From positions 1 through 20,021 of the IMG/VR virus record IMGVR_UViG_3300044627_003922: a stretch of DNA of 20,021 nucleotides. The stretch is one strand, 5' to 3'. The translations under genes were made by a program, and so were the position numbers. Origin of the DNA: a virus. The notes under the pieces are model-generated. The model saw only the letters and a list, made by a program, of their open reading frames with translations. It had not been told where the DNA came from and did no database searches. Shown here piece after piece: positions 7,127-19,114 of the stretch (its first letter is position 1; each line of letters opens with the position of its first letter).

Positions 7127-7557
7127 TTCGCGACCCTCCCCATTTCTGTTACCGGGACGAGGATCTTCGTCGAGATGTCGTGGCGCATATATGGCCGGTC
7201 GGTCCGGCCGCAGGTCTCGAACTTCCGGGGGTCGATTCGGGTCGCGTCGATGAATCGGATCTCGTCGGTGAAGTTCACGACGTAGAAGGCGGGGAGGTCT
7301 AAGGCTCGGGAAAGGTCGAACAGGCGATACCACTTTTCGAGGGTGATGTAGGTCTCGTCGTATTTGTCGTGCGAGCATCGCCGGGTCTTCACCTCGACGA
7401 TTGCGGCCATCCGGCCGGCGCGGTCCAGCTCGAAGTCATAGGGGCAGAAACGCGGCGAGGGTCGAACCTGGCACCTCCAGGCCCGACCGAGGATCGCGGC
7501 GACCTCGTCCTCGCCGACCTGACCGGTCTCCCGGTCCCGTTCGAGGAGATCGGTCAC
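7123..7557 (-). CDS. PD-(D/E)XK nuclease-like protein
   Basis: A 144-aa protein with the core of the PD-(D/E)XK nuclease fold. An N-terminal helix with acidic residues (TGQVGEDEVAAIL) is followed by PYDFELD (D41) and AAIVEVKTR (E55, K57), the metal-binding D...ExK set, and then a helix containing EKWYRLFDLS. It probably cuts branched or damaged DNA during phage replication or recombination. GTG start, GTGA overlap with the HNH gene upstream. A second, different PD-(D/E)XK protein is encoded at 16389-16742. Confidence 0.75.
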   Translation of the reverse strand: MTDLLERDRETGQVGEDEVAAILGRAWRCQVRPSPRFCPYDFELDRAGRMAAIVEVKTRRCSHDKYDETYITLEKWYRLFDLSRALDLPAFYVVNFTDEIRFIDATRIDPRKFETCGRTDRPYMRHDISTKILVPVTEMGRVAK

Positions 7558-7973
7558 GACCGCCGCGCCTCCTCGATCTCGCGCCGGTAGTCCGGAGCGT
7601 CGATCCGGCGACGGGCGAGTTCGATCCCTCCCGCGTCCTGAACTGCCCGGAGCTGCTCGTCAGGGGTCAGGACGGCAAGGATCGAAACCTCCCCCGCGTC
7701 GTAGCGGGTATGGCAACCTTGCCGGACGCGGTTCTCGGGAACTCCGTCGGGACCGGTTGACGACTCGACGACCGAGTCCGAGCAGAGGGGCAGGACCGAG
7801 TCGGGGTGAACGTAGAGGACCTTCGTCGAGGAGCCCGCGACCCGGGGGTGGTCGTAGCGGCGGGCGAGGACGTGCGCGGCGTCGATTTTGACCCCGGTCA
7901 CCGAGCAGAGGCGGCACCGGCCCTCGTCCTCGATCTTTTGACGGGCGTCGGACCAGTCGCGGCGGACGGTCAT
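7554..7973 (-). CDS. HNH-like nuclease / zinc-binding protein
   Basis: A 139-aa protein resembling HNH proteins. CRLCSVTGVKIDAAHVLAR gives the first CxxC and a His in the place of the catalytic H; VLPLCSDS and VRQGCHTRYDAGE supply the later cysteines and the 'CH' helix. The Asp-His order and zinc ligands fit, but the central region is longer than in compact HNH proteins. The ATG overlaps the stop of the 27-aa membrane peptide gene upstream. A role in phage DNA processing is likely; specificity cannot be read from sequence. Confidence 0.75.
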   Translation of the reverse strand: MTVRRDWSDARQKIEDEGRCRLCSVTGVKIDAAHVLARRYDHPRVAGSSTKVLYVHPDSVLPLCSDSVVESSTGPDGVPENRVRQGCHTRYDAGEVSILAVLTPDEQLRAVQDAGGIELARRRIDAPDYRREIEEARRS

Positions 7974-8053
7974 CGCGACCCCTCGGCCAGGATCAGGATC
8001 ACGATCAGAATCGCGGCGGATAGCAGGCAGGCTCCGATCAGGATCTCAATCAT
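7970..8053 (-). CDS. 27-aa single-TM membrane microprotein
   Basis: An 84-base frame encoding MIEILIGACLLSAAILIVI followed by LILAEGSR: a short acidic head, about 20 hydrophobic residues able to span a membrane once, and a charged tail. Its ATG overlaps the stop of the KOW-like gene (ATGA) and its TGA overlaps the ATG of the HNH-like gene, filling exactly an otherwise unexplained gap in a fully coupled operon. No cleavable signal peptide is apparent. Function unknown; small phage TM peptides can be antiholin-like or superinfection-exclusion factors, but nothing here selects one. Confidence 0.7.
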   Translation of the reverse strand: MIEILIGACLLSAAILIVILILAEGSR

Positions 8054-8229
8054 CGGTCGGACTCCTGCCGCTTCACGATCGAGAACTGCCCGTCGGAAAC
8101 CGTCGTGACCCCGCCAGAGTCGAGGCGGACGGTCCAATAGGTCCGGCCACCGATCGGGCCGATCTTCCGGGTGATGGTCCCGGTCCGGTCATAATGCCGG
8201 TGCGAGTTGGAGGTAATCAGGACCCTCAT
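8050..8229 (-). CDS. small KOW/SH3-like protein
   Basis: A 59-aa protein with a single small beta-barrel-like domain. The pattern RTGTITRKIGPIGGRTYWTVRLDSGGVTTVSDGQF is the 'G-hydrophobic ... W-V-LD-GG ... V' layout of KOW or SH3-type barrels, which bind nucleic acid or protein. It starts on ATGA with the methyltransferase stop. An ATG ten codons earlier would lie within the methyltransferase. The function is unknown; a similar fold may be encoded at 17319-17510. Confidence 0.6.
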   Translation of the reverse strand: MRVLITSNSHRHYDRTGTITRKIGPIGGRTYWTVRLDSGGVTTVSDGQFSIVKRQESDR

Positions 8230-9614
8230 CCGAACTCCCGAAGGCGGTGACCGATCCACTCGGCGACGTTCACGGTGACGGCGTTTCCCATTTGGGCATA
8301 CCGGGGGCCGTCCGGTTTCGGGTCGTAGGCGCAGGTCGCCCGATCCTCGCCGCGTCCGTTGTGGCCGATCGCTGCCGTTGCCCCGAGTGCCGGGGTAAAA
8401 CCCTCTCCGGTGATCGGGTCCTGTTTAGCGTGGAAGGCCGTCACGGGATCGTCCACCCGTCCGGAAACCCCTGGAGTCGTTCGCACTCCGTCGGGGTCAG
8501 GCGTCGGACCGTCTGCCCGTCCCTGATCGTCGGGTAGCCCTGACCCGGCTTCCCTTCCCCGGTCGTCAGTTGTCGGGCGTAGGGCGTCTCCCTGACCTCG
8601 GCCCGTTGGTTCTCGGAAACCGCCATCGGTGACGAGGGCTCCGGGTTGCCCGAGGTCTTGTCCTGCGGATTCTCCGTATTTTGTGCTGAGGGTTGCGCCG
8701 GCGACGAGCCACCCGGCTTCCGCATCGGGGAGGTCTGCCCCGGAGTTTCCGAACCGGGTGCCGAGTGATTGAGTCGCGCCAGTTCGGTCAATGCTCGGTC
8801 CAGTTCCCGAGGCAACGAGCGCCCTCGTTTCTCGGCTCGCCTGATGATTCCCGCCGCCGCCCTCGGGCTCAAGTAGAACCTCGGCGGCACGTCGGCCTCT
8901 AGCACGTCGGGCAAGGATGAAAACGCGCCGCCGTCGTTGTGGCACTCCGAAGTATCGGCTGTCCAGCACTCTCCAGGCGAGGTCGTGAAACCCGAGGTCG
9001 GCCAGCGTCGCGAGAACGATCCCGAAGTCAGCTCCCCCATTTGAGGAAAGGAGTCCGGGAACATTCTCAATGAGAACCCATCCTCCATCCCCGAGAACAA
9101 GGTCAGAGATTCGGGCGGCCTCGAAGAACAGGCCGGAGCGTTCCCCGGCGAGTCCTGCCCGTTTTCCGGCGACGGAGAGGTCCTGGCAGGGGAATCCTCC
9201 GCAGACGAGATCAACGCCAATGGAACCTGATTGCTCCCGCTTGCCGCTGCCTTCAGGGTCGGTGCTTCGCCCTCCCGAAACCCGATCCCCCCGGCTGCCG
9301 ACCCCTGACCCCCGGAAAACCCGGCTGCTTTTTGGTTCTGAAAGATCACTCCCGCTCGACCCGTCGCCGTTCCGGTGTTCTGCCCCATTGTCGGAACTAG
9401 ATCCGTCGCCGCATCGTTCAGCGAGTCCCACGCTTGCCAGCCATTCGCCGTCGAGTCCGCAGACGTCTTCGTGGATCGGGACGTCGGGCCAGTGTCGCCG
9501 GAGGACTTTCCGGGCGTTGGCGTCGGCTTCACATTGCGCGATGATTCGATGACCGGCTCGTTCGAGTCCGAGGTCGAACCCTCCGACTCCGGTAAAGAGG
9601 GAGATGACATTCAC
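8226..9614 (-). CDS. C5-cytosine DNA methyltransferase (frame A)
   Basis: A 462-aa frame that transfers a methyl group from S-adenosylmethionine to cytosine C5. Visible motifs: I, FTGVGGFDLG (7-16); IV, GGFPCQDLSVAG with catalytic C143; VI, ENVPG (183-187); VIII, RYFGVPQRRRR (220-230); X, QMGNAVTVNVAEWIG (441-455). Two oddities: a roughly 65-residue Ser/Gly-rich insert (68-132) between motifs III and IV, and no motif IX in this frame. Motif IX instead lies in the overlapping frame B (8441-9610). The start is GTG, in a GTGA overlap; frame B's ATG lies four bases later. The protein could be active only if motif IX is supplied by frameshifting or by a second chain. It might protect phage DNA from restriction. 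Confidence 0.88.
   Translation of the reverse strand: MNVISLFTGVGGFDLGLERAGHRIIAQCEADANARKVLRRHWPDVPIHEDVCGLDGEWLASVGLAERCGDGSSSDNGAEHRNGDGSSGSDLSEPKSSRVFRGSGVGSRGDRVSGGRSTDPEGSGKREQSGSIGVDLVCGGFPCQDLSVAGKRAGLAGERSGLFFEAARISDLVLGDGGWVLIENVPGLLSSNGGADFGIVLATLADLGFHDLAWRVLDSRYFGVPQRRRRVFILARRARGRRAAEVLLEPEGGGGNHQASRETRALVASGTGPSIDRTGATQSLGTRFGNSGADLPDAEAGWLVAGATLSTKYGESAGQDLGQPGALVTDGGFREPTGRGQGDALRPTTDDRGREAGSGLPDDQGRADGPTPDPDGVRTTPGVSGRVDDPVTAFHAKQDPITGEGFTPALGATAAIGHNGRGEDRATCAYDPKPDGPRYAQMGNAVTVNVAEWIGHRLREFG
8441..9610 (-). CDS. overprinted frame-B protein within the methyltransferase gene
   Basis: A 389-codon open frame on the same strand, one base ahead of frame A, beginning with ATG four bases after the methyltransferase GTG. 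Residues 85-130 look like a methyltransferase target-recognition module (AGFSGGQGSAAGGIGF then EAPTLKAAASGSNQVP). Residues 131-270, read from the DNA that encodes motifs IV-VIII in frame A, contain SSAEDSPARTSPSPE and FYLSPRAAAGIIRRAEKRG; from memory, this block recurs in phage proteins annotated beside C5 methyltransferases. Residues 329-389 hold a true motif IX region, KPGQGYPTIRDG and RRLTPTECERLQGFPDG. Alternative starts are TTG 9220 and ATG 8626. High GC favours long false frames, so expression is uncertain. Confidence 0.5.
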   Translation of the reverse strand: MSSPSLPESEGSTSDSNEPVIESSRNVKPTPTPGKSSGDTGPTSRSTKTSADSTANGWQAWDSLNDAATDLVPTMGQNTGTATGRAGVIFQNQKAAGFSGGQGSAAGGIGFREGEAPTLKAAASGSNQVPLALISSAEDSPARTSPSPENGQDSPGNAPACSSRPPESLTLFSGMEDGFSLRMFPDSFPQMGELTSGSFSRRWPTSGFTTSPGECWTADTSECHNDGGAFSSLPDVLEADVPPRFYLSPRAAAGIIRRAEKRGRSLPRELDRALTELARLNHSAPGSETPGQTSPMRKPGGSSPAQPSAQNTENPQDKTSGNPEPSSPMAVSENQRAEVRETPYARQLTTGEGKPGQGYPTIRDGQTVRRLTPTECERLQGFPDGWTIP

Positions 9615-9898
9615 GCCGCCCTCCGAAGGACCCGGGACCCGTCGGCCTCGTAGTCGAGGTCAAGGCCCCGGACTGCCCCCTCGGGCCATCCGAGCGCAAT
9701 ATGGGCCGGGACCTCCGAGAGGTGAATCCGGAGGCGGCATAGGAAGGCGTCGACGGCCTGCTCCCCGGGGTTATGCCCGGAGCGCCAATGCCGGAGATGT
9801 CTCCGGAGGCCGTCGTCGAGGTAGCGGGCCTCGGGGCGGGTCTCGATCCAATCGACGAGGGCGGGGCCGTCGTAGGGGTTCACGACCGGGGCAGCCAT
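9611..9898 (-). CDS. hypothetical protein, paralogue of the 10109-10480 product
   Basis: A 95-aa protein of unknown function. PYDGPALVDWIETRPEARYLDD, then VDAFLCRLRIHLSEVP, aligns with the N-terminal domain of the 123-aa protein encoded two genes upstream (DGPKFVEWIARVRPDY ... VDRICVALFLHLSEIP). That protein adds a helix-turn-helix that is absent here. It is probably all-helical. It overlaps the upstream gene by one base (TGATG), and its stop overlaps the GTG start of the methyltransferase. Confidence 0.7.
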   Translation of the reverse strand: MAAPVVNPYDGPALVDWIETRPEARYLDDGLRRHLRHWRSGHNPGEQAVDAFLCRLRIHLSEVPAHIALGWPEGAVRGLDLDYEADGSRVLRRAA

Positions 9899-10809: not shown

Positions 10810-11279
10810 CAGTCCGCCGGATACCCATTAGGAAGGGGTTCCGGAAGGGGTTCGGAAAGGGTTATTTCGGGACTGCCGAGGGCCGCATAGAGGGCCGGTG
10901 CGAACTCCCCGGCAGCGGCGACGAACTCGGGCCATAGGTCAGAATCCGGGACCTCCTGGAGGGCGTTTAGCGCCCCCTGAATCTGTTTCTCCGACTTCGG
11001 GGCCTGATACTTCAGGGCCTTCGGGAGCAGGACGACCCGGGCCGCCTCGTCGTAGAGGACGAACCCGGCGTCAAGGAGGGTCGTCATCCGGTCCCGGACC
11101 TCGGCCTCCGACCATTCCAGGTCCGCCTGAATGTAGGCGTATGGCAGGCGATAGAGGCCTTCGAGGTTGCGGTGTTCGCAGGTAAGCAGGTAGATCGCGA
11201 GAAGGGTCGTTTCCGAGTCCCATCGGACGACCTTGTCATCGGACCAAAACAACGGCGAGACGGGGTAGTAACGGGCCAT
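10809..11279 (-). CDS. replication initiator / replisome organiser-like protein
   Basis: A 156-aa protein. Residues 1-95 match the N-terminal winged-helix domain of phage replisome organisers and DnaD-like initiators: YYPVSPLFWSDDKVVRWDSE, TTLLAIYLLTCEHRN, GLYRLPYAYIQADLEWSE, and DRMTTLLDAGFVLYDEAARVV then LPKALKYQAP. The C-terminus is a low-complexity, Pro/Leu-rich tail (SEPLPEPLPNGY). It should bind the phage origin and recruit a helicase loader. No iteron cluster was seen in the gene. It overlaps both neighbours by one base (TGATG). Confidence 0.8.
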   Translation of the reverse strand: MARYYPVSPLFWSDDKVVRWDSETTLLAIYLLTCEHRNLEGLYRLPYAYIQADLEWSEAEVRDRMTTLLDAGFVLYDEAARVVLLPKALKYQAPKSEKQIQGALNALQEVPDSDLWPEFVAAAGEFAPALYAALGSPEITLSEPLPEPLPNGYPAD

Positions 11280-12196
11280 CAGGTGGCGCTCCTGTCGTCA
11301 TTAGAGCGGAGGGTTGGCATCGCACCAACACTTCCCGACTGGTTTGCCGGGGTCGTTTCTTCTACGCCTTCCGCGTGTGGTTTCGGGTAGGGGTAAGTTT
11401 TGAGCGCCAGGTCGCGGCGGTATTTCGGCCTTAGAAACTTGACGTAACGAAACTGCCTGAGGTTGTGAGGCGTTGCCCGCTCGATGTTTTGGCGGAGAAA
11501 GTCACCCTGAGGCCCTCGTCCGGCGATTTCGTTTCGCATAGAATCGTGAAACCAGCGACCGTCAACCTCCCAAAATGTCGCCGTATGTTCTCCGCAATAA
11601 AGAAACGAGCAGGCCTGATAAACCGCGCCGAATAGTCGGCAACGTTCGTCGGCGAAGGATTGGACCCATCGGACAGGGGTCGTAGCCTTTATGTATTTCA
11701 GCGTGAGGGAGAGGACCGCCGATTCGGTATTACGCGGCATCGAGTCGACGACCCAAAGACGATTGAGTTCGAGGTATTCCTTCGGGCCGGTTCCAGGGAC
11801 AATCCCGTTCTGACTCGTCGGGTTCATCGCGTAGCCGTATTGCGCGACACCAATAAGTTCGTCCTGCCAGAACGCGCCGAGATGAATGTAGGAGGCGTTG
11901 TAGACCTTGCCGCTGTAATGGTTCTGACGGATTAGGTCGTTGGCGAGGTCCCTTTCGATGACTTCGACCTCCAGGTCACCCTTTCGCCATCCGATGACTT
12001 CGGGTGCGCCGAATAGCGCCCCCTGGTCACTAAACACAGGTCCGGCCTCGCCGGTTAGTCGAAGGTCAGTCGGGGGACCGCCGGGGGTCGAGGAGGGATG
12101 ACCCCCGGCGTTTTCGGGCGACCCCTCGCCGCCCCCCGAGATCCCGGGGGAGAGGGTCAGGCCCCCGGGATCTCGGCGGTCTGCGTAGGTCGCCAT
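11279..12196 (-). CDS. Mom-like DNA modification acyltransferase
   Basis: A 305-aa protein resembling phage Mu Mom, the GNAT-fold enzyme that converts adenine in DNA to N6-carbamoylmethyladenine and so blocks restriction. Conserved blocks: NHYSGK (92-97), IHLGAF then LIGVAQYGYAMNP (104-125), YLELNRLWVVD (141-151), PRNTESAVLSL, and WVQSFADERCRLFGAVYQA (177-195). An N-terminal Gly/Pro-rich head of about 65 residues precedes the domain and is partly written by a perfect 15-bp inverted repeat. Codon third positions are less GC-rich than in neighbours, suggesting transfer. It lies just after a TM gene and a PP-loop gene. Whether it makes the Mu base or another one cannot be told. Confidence 0.85.
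   Translation of the reverse strand: MATYADRRDPGGLTLSPGISGGGEGSPENAGGHPSSTPGGPPTDLRLTGEAGPVFSDQGALFGAPEVIGWRKGDLEVEVIERDLANDLIRQNHYSGKVYNASYIHLGAFWQDELIGVAQYGYAMNPTSQNGIVPGTGPKEYLELNRLWVVDSMPRNTESAVLSLTLKYIKATTPVRWVQSFADERCRLFGAVYQACSFLYCGEHTATFWEVDGRWFHDSMRNEIAGRGPQGDFLRQNIERATPHNLRQFRYVKFLRPKYRRDLALKTYPYPKPHAEGVEETTPANQSGSVGAMPTLRSNDDRSAT
12136..12176. promoter_or_regulatory. perfect 15-bp inverted repeat in the mom-like 5' coding region
   Basis: CCGAGATCCCGGGGG at 12136-12150 and its exact reverse complement at 12162-12176, separated by 11 bases. In leftward mRNA this would fold into a very stable hairpin 20 to 60 bases after the start codon, covering codons about 7-21. No T run follows on either strand, so a plain terminator is unlikely. 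In Mu, mom translation is blocked by mRNA structure and opened by the Com protein; a comparable switch here is an inference. Confidence 0.8.
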
Positions 12197-12420
12197 CAGT
12201 TCCGACCCTTTCGGCCGGCGTCTATTTGGTCGCCGAACTGGTCGAGGTAACGCTTTGCGACTTCGCCGTCCTCGATCAGGGCCTCTGCGTATTCACGCGG
12301 TTCTCCAATCGACAGGTCGTTTACGGCGGCGAAGTAGCCCTCCGAAAACCCTCGGTAGCGGCCAGAGGCATAGGCGAATATCGCGGCGACCAATCCCCCG
12401 GCGATCAGGAAGTAGGTCAT
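12196..12420 (-). CDS. small membrane protein between PP-loop and mom-like genes
   Basis: A 74-aa protein starting at ATG 12420 (ATGA overlap with the PP-loop gene). Residues 1-18, MTYFLIAGGLVAAIFAYA, form one N-terminal TM helix, followed by an aromatic basic boundary (SGRYRGFSEGYF) and a charged helical soluble tail (EYAEALIEDGEVAKRYLDQF). N-in/C-out versus C-in topology is unclear. The longer frame upstream would overlap the PP-loop gene by over 100 bases and is rejected. Confidence 0.75.
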   Translation of the reverse strand: MTYFLIAGGLVAAIFAYASGRYRGFSEGYFAAVNDLSIGEPREYAEALIEDGEVAKRYLDQFGDQIDAGRKGRN

Positions 12421-13298
12421 TGGTCGATCCCCTCGATCGTTTGCTGCCGTTCGAGCATCGCGTCGCAGGATGAGCAGAGGGGGCCGGTGTCTTCCATCAG
12501 ACCCCGATCGAGTTCTTCCCTCCCTGCCCCCCATTTACAGAACCGGAGCCCCATCGCCTGCGCTTCGCGTTCGATAGAACCGATCCGCTCCTCGAACCAC
12601 TCCGGCCAAAGGGACCGCAGCATTTCGCGCTCGTCAGCGTCCGCGTAGGCGCCGCAGTTACACTCACCCGAGCGATGTAGGAGGGCCGCGACTTCAGACA
12701 ATCGAAGACCGTGGTCCTCGCGATAGGCCGCCATTTCGTCATTTGTCCATTCGATGACCGGATTCACGAATACCATCGAGCCCTTACGGTTGACCGGTTG
12801 ACGGTTAGATCGCCGAGACGATTCGGCCCGGCGAATACCTGAGATTGCGAGGACCCGAGCCGTCCTCGGGTGTCCCTCCTTCGTGTCTCGGAGAAGTTGT
12901 TCGAGCGGCCTCTCCTTCAGGCGGTTATAGGCCCGTCCGTGTTGGTTAGGGCCGGGGAAACCGAGGGGGTCCCAGGTGTTGCCCTTCCTATCGGTCCCGC
13001 CGAGAACGAGCAGGCGATAGGCGTCAAAGTCCTGACCGATGATCCGGAGGGGCTTATCCAGTTCGTCAGCGCATTTCCGAACGTGATCCTGAACGCCGGG
13101 TGTCGAAGTCCCCGTGTCGATGTGAATCAGTTCGTCGTAGTGGTCGCGGCATCGGTGAGCCACGACTAGGGAATCCGAACCGCCGGAAAATAGGCAGAAC
13201 GTCCGGATCGGCTTATGTTCGGCCTTCGCCCGTTCGATCCATTCGTCCGGAGTAATCCGGGGAATCAGGCGGCCGTCGTCCGAGGGGTTAGTAGCCAC
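12417..13298 (-). CDS. PAPS-reductase-like PP-loop protein
   Basis: A 293-aa protein of the phage PAPS-reductase-like family. The PP-loop FSGGSDS (37-43) binds ATP or an adenylated substrate. IHIDTGTSTPGV (59-69) and AISGIRRAESSRR (151-163) are typical, as are the cysteines C213, C215 (GECNCGA) and C275, C278 (LCSSC), which may hold a metal or a sulfur carrier. Relatives include CysH and the DNA phosphorothioation protein DndC. The start is GTG, overlapping the upstream TAG as TAGTG. Next to a Mom-like enzyme it could take part in a DNA modification, or in sulfur metabolism. Confidence 0.85.
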   Translation of the reverse strand: MATNPSDDGRLIPRITPDEWIERAKAEHKPIRTFCLFSGGSDSLVVAHRCRDHYDELIHIDTGTSTPGVQDHVRKCADELDKPLRIIGQDFDAYRLLVLGGTDRKGNTWDPLGFPGPNQHGRAYNRLKERPLEQLLRDTKEGHPRTARVLAISGIRRAESSRRSNRQPVNRKGSMVFVNPVIEWTNDEMAAYREDHGLRLSEVAALLHRSGECNCGAYADADEREMLRSLWPEWFEERIGSIEREAQAMGLRFCKWGAGREELDRGLMEDTGPLCSSCDAMLERQQTIEGIDQ

Positions 13299-18266: not shown

Positions 18267-18545
18267 GTCGTTCAGAACTCGATTTAGGCGGCGCACCTCG
18301 GCGACCTGCGCCTGAGCCTCCGCCCTGCCGACCTCCTCGGGGGTCGGACCCCGGCGGGATAGTTCCCGCTGCCGGTAGTAGCGGATGAAGGCGACCCGGT
18401 TCAGCCGGGTTTTTGCCTCGCCATTCGTCAGGACCCGGGGGGCGACGGCCGACCGGCAGGGGATACCGCACTCGGGGCAGGTCGCGAAGGACCGGGAGTG
18501 CGGCCATCGGGTCCGGCAGTCCGGGCACTCGAACCCGATCGCCAT
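18249..18545 (-). CDS. zinc-ribbon hypothetical protein
   Basis: A 98-aa protein with an N-terminal zinc ribbon: FECPDCRTRWPHSR and FATCPECGIPCRS give two CxxC pairs and one more cysteine. A basic helical region follows (RLNRVAFIRYYRQRELSRR) and then a coiled tail (EEVGRAEAQAQVAEVRRLNR). Its last codons and stop are part of the terminator stem-loop. It overlaps the dNMP kinase gene by one base. It probably binds nucleic acid. Confidence 0.75.
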   Translation of the reverse strand: MAIGFECPDCRTRWPHSRSFATCPECGIPCRSAVAPRVLTNGEAKTRLNRVAFIRYYRQRELSRRGPTPEEVGRAEAQAQVAEVRRLNRVLNDKTPGD

Positions 18546-19114
18546 CAGTCCAGGACGTCCCGGACGGCCTGCCAGAGTTCAGCGATCGTCCCCGAGTTGT
18601 CGATCTCGACGTCGATCAGGGCCTCGGGTAGCGGCCGTTCGGTCTTATGCGTTCCAGCTCCGGCCCCGGGCCGGATGACTTGCCAAACCTCCCCCCCGGC
18701 CTGCCGGATTCGTTCGGCCTCGGCGACGGTTCGGACGTCGGTCAGGACGAGGAGGTCGACGTCGGCCTCGAAGGGGACCGCGTCGAGGAGCGAGGTTTCC
18801 CCGAGGACGTCCCGGATACCTTCGGTCCCGAGGCGTTGTAGGAACTCCCGCCCGGAGGTTTTCGCGACGACGGTATTGCGGGCGTCGAGGACGACGACCG
18901 ACCCGGTCGACTTGAACTGGTCGGCCCACCTCCGGATTCCCGAGGTTCCGACGTCGTCCGGGTGAACGGTCACCCCTAGCGCCAGGGCCGCGATCAGTTT
19001 CAGGCGGTCGGCGAACGCTTCGCGGCGAACGGTCCCGTCGACGAGGTCCTCCAGAATGTCGGCGACGGTGTCCTTCCCCGCCCGGGCCTTACCGTGTAGT
19101 CCGATGATCTTCAT
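18545..19114 (-). CDS. phage deoxynucleoside monophosphate kinase
   Basis: A 189-aa P-loop kinase that phosphorylates dNMPs to dNDPs for phage DNA synthesis. Walker A is LHGKARAGKDTVA (6-18). LGVTVHPDDVGTSGIRRWAD and SVVVLDARNTVVAKTSGREF are lid/substrate segments; DLLVLTDVRTVAEAERIRQA is the typical 'TDvR ... E---i' stretch, and VWQVIRPG follows. Length fits the T4 gp1-like family. T4 gp1 accepts hydroxymethyl-dCMP, so broad specificity for a modified base is possible (inference). It lies between the zinc-ribbon and metallophosphoesterase genes. Confidence 0.9.
   Translation of the reverse strand: MKIIGLHGKARAGKDTVADILEDLVDGTVRREAFADRLKLIAALALGVTVHPDDVGTSGIRRWADQFKSTGSVVVLDARNTVVAKTSGREFLQRLGTEGIRDVLGETSLLDAVPFEADVDLLVLTDVRTVAEAERIRQAGGEVWQVIRPGAGAGTHKTERPLPEALIDVEIDNSGTIAELWQAVRDVLD

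Follow-up and report, generated by a model that had tools for sequence, protein, structure and literature searches.

The window analysed here, a 20 kb IMG/VR virus contig taken over its full length (20,021 nucleotides), contains two long overlapping reading frames, A and B, with B lying in the +1 frame relative to A (Table 1). The two starts overlap as GTGAATG, within the sequence GGAGGGCGGCGTGAATG, and share a single upstream GGAGG. Coordinates, strand, frames and start codons were confirmed as given in a preliminary description of the locus, as was its allotment of cytosine C5-methyltransferase motifs. Frame A matches Pfam PF00145 at 7e-42, on model positions of the catalytic part, and has every feature of that family sought in it, namely motifs I, IV (PCQ), VI (ENV), VIII and X. 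Motif IX is present in frame B only, where residues 336-389 match PF00145 at 4e-5 over model positions 234-296, the part that holds this motif; B terminates three residues after the motif. Given A's protein and codon usage, the probability that B would remain open over 389 codons by chance is 0.009.

Table 1. Features of the overlapping methyltransferase frames in the window.
Feature	Position	Strand	Remarks
Frame A	8226..9614	-	putative alpha subunit; GTG start, 462 aa; C5-methyltransferase motifs I-VIII and X, without motif IX
Frame B (+1)	8441..9610	-	putative beta subunit; ATG start, 389 aa; carries motif IX
Shine-Dalgarno-like GGAGG	9620..9624	-	common to both starts; 5 nt before A GTG, 9 nt before B ATG
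Motif I in A (ISLFTGVGGF)	9576..9605	-	
Target-recognition-type module in B, residues 98-133	9212..9319	-	within the insert between A motifs III and IV
Motif IV in A (GGFPCQDLS)	9174..9200	-	
B reading SSAEDSPARTSPSPE	9164-9208	-	over the DNA of A motif IV
Motif VI in A (LIENV)	9060..9074	-	
Motif VIII in A (VPQRRRRV)	8922..8945	-	
Conserved helical core of B (SSLPDVLEADVPPRFYLSPRAAAGIIRRAEKRGRSLP...)	8777..8920	-	z about 66 against the A-fixed null (best-scoring segment); AlphaFold2 pLDDT 96-97
Second target-recognition-type module in B (AVSENQRAEV...GKPGQGYPTI)	8525..8623	-	homology to frame-A modules
Motif IX in B (RRLTPTECERLQGFPDGW)	8453..8506	-	
Motif X in A (GNAVTVNVAEWIG)	8250..8288	-	

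Elsewhere in the window, positions 11279-12196 (minus strand) encode a Mom-like DNA modification protein (phrog_1384, 2.6e-53), and a PAPS reductase-like gene (12417-13298) and a dNMP kinase gene (18545-19114) are also present. On the strength of these three genes, more than one kind of DNA modification is possible in this phage.

The 80 loci closest to the window were retrieved with frame A alone as query, and the behaviour of frame B was assessed against a null in which synonymous codons were permuted within each A gene. Across 83 loci, +1 stops numbered 203 against 422 expected (0.48 of expectation), while +2 stops numbered 873 against 851 (a ratio of 1.03); as a control, 114 other long reading frames of the same loci gave 1.01 and 0.97 in +1 and +2, respectively. 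With A proteins held fixed, pairwise similarity in frame B reached z=87 over 53 non-redundant loci. The corresponding value for +2 was 38, as expected since the DNA itself is constrained. Past motif VIII, similarity in B lay at 2.4-3.2, with a null near 0 and +2 at 0.3-0.65, and in four subgroups B was conserved better there than A itself. Fourfold-degenerate sites at which A is unchanged diverged by 0.575 over motifs I-III, before the overlap, by 0.30 over IV-VIII and by 0.132 after VIII (68 independent pairs); the A-selected loci alone gave 0.63, 0.42 and 0.19 for the same regions (13 pairs). Both frames are thus under coding constraint in a conserved arrangement, and B behaves as an overlapping gene should, since the first frame does not account for the degree to which B is kept open and conserved. 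That B similarity is a mere shadow of conserved A DNA was rejected by the permutation and the +2 control for motifs IV-VIII, above all after VIII. The same reading still stands for motifs I-III of the window clade: in five window-like loci, constraint on B was no higher there than on +2 (z of 4.8 and 5.1, respectively), which leaves unproven exactly where B starts in the window.

As far as sequence signals alone can tell, frame B has a translation start of its own. At most loci it begins at an ATG, a median of 23 nt upstream of motif IV, and a Shine-Dalgarno sequence precedes this codon in 78% of cases as against 16% of control ATGs, although selection of the best candidate ATG per locus favours the former figure. 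Among genes of the region that begin [MV]N and then G, the asparagine is spelled AAT in 7 of 7 with a long B and AAC in 3 of 3 without one (p about 0.008 by Fisher's test, our own arithmetic); it is the AAT spelling that creates the ATG of B within GTGAATG, an overlapping start that relatives with a long B conserve.

The placement of motif IX is exclusive. None of 79 relatives has it in both frames: it lies in either B or A in the 45 classified loci, and in the remaining 34 it is placed elsewhere or the locus is truncated. On the tree, its presence in B requires five changes (4-5 in bootstrap, at least 3 of them forced). Motif IX is in A at 33 of the 79 loci, and the core of B is present even where A is complete in this way. 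Homologues with IX in A and a frame B full of stops, named beforehand as the case that would refute a genuine split, were not what we encountered; B is open almost everywhere, including loci with IX in A.

Frame B of the window carries two target-recognition-type modules, both homologous to modules that single-frame enzymes hold in A between motifs VIII and IX. The upstream module resembles frame-A modules in L257 (7.5e-10) and L003 (6e-8), and the downstream one that in L059 (5e-14). Compared with these two on B, frame A of the window retains one weaker recognition-type module (1e-5). There is no stop after the core of B in the window, and the frame continues through the second module into motif IX. 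At five further loci (L007, L011, L022, L023 and L029), frame B has a recognition-type module reading ENQRGEL...GGGKPGQGYPAV ahead of its core, at a point that falls between motifs III and IV of A. Such modules seem to change both their frame and their position.

A second subtype of B, seen at the gp64 locus of mycobacteriophage SG4 and in L038, L058, L060, L068 and L080, likewise accompanies an A with motifs I-VIII and X and carries in +1 a motif IX-like LNPxWVEWLMGFPxGWT. It differs from B of the window in its core (WPRSGMMRNGTAYQL; it carries SETWPRSGMMRNGTAYQL), in belonging to a separate clade and in its form of motif IX, which Pfam does not recognise. Proteins with SETWPRSGMMRNGTAYQL are not free-standing in the loci examined (SG4 and IMG/VR relatives), where they too are +1 frames of methyltransferases. 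A different arrangement occurs in L032, L033, L034 and L049, where an A chain with I-VIII is followed by two to four small reading frames, in changing frames, each with its own IX and X. These loci possibly encode one catalytic chain with several interchangeable recognition subunits.

A typical B reads M...QLTLFAEDSPARTY... to ...SLSDVLETDVPQKYYLSPKACAGILRRAEKRGKELP..L..AL and ends 20-35 residues further. AlphaFold2 was confident only in the C-terminal helical domain (pLDDT about 95), and for the isolated B of the window confidence was limited to the core and the motif IX helix; the alignment used comprised the window and IMG/VR rows only. Two blocks that the preliminary description likened to phage proteins, SSAEDSPARTSPSPE and YLSPRAAAGIIRRAEKRG, arise when the DNA encoding A motif IV and the segment that follows motif VIII is read in +1, although their conservation in B is far above A's contribution. 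Profile searches with the core gave no significant match in Pfam, NCBIfam or PDB, and a fold search of PDB likewise returned nothing significant. All 38 B-core proteins tested did match PHROG 16143 (139 aa, labelled DNA methyltransferase). This family appears to be made of frame-B products, since the frame-B protein of streptococcal phage 5093 aligns with it over its whole length (6e-59). Its label gives no hint of an overlapping gene, and B of the window has recognition modules and motif IX in addition. An hhalign comparison of the core with the part of E. coli Dcm that follows motif VIII in the enzyme's own frame (LLDPMVEAKYILTP) aligned the expected places without reaching significance; few Dcm-like sequences were included.

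A +1 frame over motifs IV-VIII lies inside nearly all related phage and prophage C5-methyltransferases, including those with IX in A such as P1 Dmt, and the core was found in P1 Dmt, a Caulobacter phage, gut Heliusvirales and Omega-like mycobacteriophages. In 20 bacterial genomes selected for holding one B, 17 phage-type C5-methyltransferases have the core and the Dcm-like ones lack it. The overlap is conserved in phages and prophages whose hosts include Proteobacteria, Actinobacteria, Firmicutes and Acidobacteria, among others. Scanning with B alone retrieved 441 stretches in a set of 84,980 species genomes, and viral contigs yielded at least 594. Frame A accompanied B in 160 of 160 loci found in this manner, with no free-standing B gene among them. 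Judged from its sequence record, frame B is a conserved, mostly unannotated gene within the C5-methyltransferase of hundreds of phages and prophages.

Insertions were seen in several of these enzymes. In the Omega-like phages L094 (827-2350) and Schatzie (L290, 327-1850) the methyltransferase is interrupted after motif VIII; the insertion in Schatzie holds an HNH gene, annotated 'unable to determine intron boundaries', and in L094 a short B frame with a Shine-Dalgarno-like start crosses the insert junction. L087 resembles these two. The P1 dmt record used (L088) has a long insert inside motif IV (PCFTAGHMVLCKNG...VVHNCQAFS), which looks like an intein.

Three explanations of the split had been offered at the outset: a two-chain enzyme, programmed frameshifts, or compensating indels near 8626 and 8441. 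Indel errors are common in metagenome contigs, and two of them, through faulty assembly or decay of the gene, could in principle have put part of one enzyme out of frame. We regard this as excluded for practical purposes, because the end of a separate contig (L008) covers window positions 7515-8714 (1200 nt) ungapped at 99.8% identity, without a gap at either suspected site, and because four relatives (L009, L010, L012 and L013; best-segment identity 40-77%) have the same split, with I-VIII and X in A, IX in +1 and both chains confirmed by Pfam. These four form one clade with the window in the tree of the catalytic part (99/96). Motif IX moreover occurs in B in about five separate lineages, both frames being under selection. 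A single full-length enzyme made by frameshifting from A to B before motif IX and back before X would suit the order of A-recognition, B-IX and A-X, and the resumption of X in A right after the end of IX in L012. However, it demands two shifts and requires the second frame only past a shift site, leaving unexplained both the start signals of B and its open, protein-level conserved course upstream, over motifs IV-VIII. B also stops cleanly a few residues past IX in the window, L012 and L013, and in most relatives it ends well before IX, so that no frame exists there to shift into. We hold frameshifting to be very unlikely, and among the three options the two-chain enzyme is the one supported.

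A further alternative concerns the role of the core rather than the split. It may be an independent overlapping protein, for example with a counter-defence or regulatory function, whose only catalytic link is a run-on into motif IX in a few lineages. Its presence beside complete A chains and its lack of database relatives noted above are in keeping with such a role, but its association with A at all 160 loci found through B is not, nor is the repeated gain by B of methyltransferase parts, with recognition modules acquired both upstream and downstream of the core in addition to IX. In our opinion a core that has not been seen without A and keeps acquiring enzyme parts is likelier to be a subunit than an unrelated protein, and we consider the independent role improbable, if less so than frameshifting.

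Our preferred reading, which we consider probable, is that A and B are both translated and form the alpha and beta chains of a C5 DNA methyltransferase, and that beta grew from the older core of B. Translation, assembly, function as a heterodimer and methylation are inferred, and there are no expression, peptide or activity data. One message would yield both chains, A from the GTG as the catalytic domain with motifs I-VIII and X, and B from the ATG four bases on, served by the same GGAGG, with motif IX and recognition modules; the module that A retains speaks against a clear-cut division of the recognition region. B would dock on A and complete the small domain, made up of the recognition region and IX; cytosine would then be methylated by the pair, as established for M.EcoHK31I (PMC3404938). 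The ancestor of the beta gene would be the older overlapping gene represented by the core, which most related phage enzymes carry in +1 across motifs IV-VIII. In the lineage of the window, loss of the stop after the core may have extended B into the recognition region, after which motif IX would have been retained in B and lost from A.

A broader generalisation is offered tentatively, at somewhat less than even confidence: phage and prophage C5-methyltransferases as a class may hold an ancient, unrecognised +1 gene over their catalytic core, which would supply a second subunit even where A looks complete and serve as a platform for repeated moves of IX and modules. On that view, P1 Dmt and many other phage enzymes taken to be 'single-chain' would in fact be of the alpha/beta kind. 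Our literature search, which did not extend to subscription papers, turned up no description of a conserved overlapping gene within phage methyltransferases, and novelty is provisional; one mycobacteriophage paper gives such genes as plain DNA methylases. Gene finders skip frame B, and a partner needed for expressing such enzymes may therefore be absent from annotations and clones. For research on how genes arise by overprinting, a long, conserved, same-strand overlap within a catalytic core offers an unusually favourable case, and the progression from core-only B through B with IX and B with IX and X to separate small IX-X genes is a natural series for the division of an enzyme between chains.

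M.AquI is encoded by two overlapping genes and was the precedent initially proposed. It serves for one enzyme divided over two genes, and together with M.EcoHK31I it is named in the literature as a two-polypeptide exception among C5 enzymes. It is not the closest parallel, however: M.AquI has IX and X together on the small chain (PMC3404938), whereas X of the window is in A, an arrangement that is not of the AquI type and to whose division L011 and L201 come nearer. The nearest counterpart is M.EcoHK31I, a proven two-polypeptide C5-methyltransferase (YGGCCR) with I-VIII and X on the large chain and IX alone on the small one (PMC3404938). Its predicted recognition domain is on the large chain as published, while in the window homologous modules flank the core of B and one more lies on A. 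B of the window further differs in overlapping A from A's fifth base. The small chain of M.EcoHK31I is likewise read from an alternative frame within the large gene. In the division of the motifs themselves the window meets the same pattern, with I-VIII and X but no IX held by A, and IX held by B.
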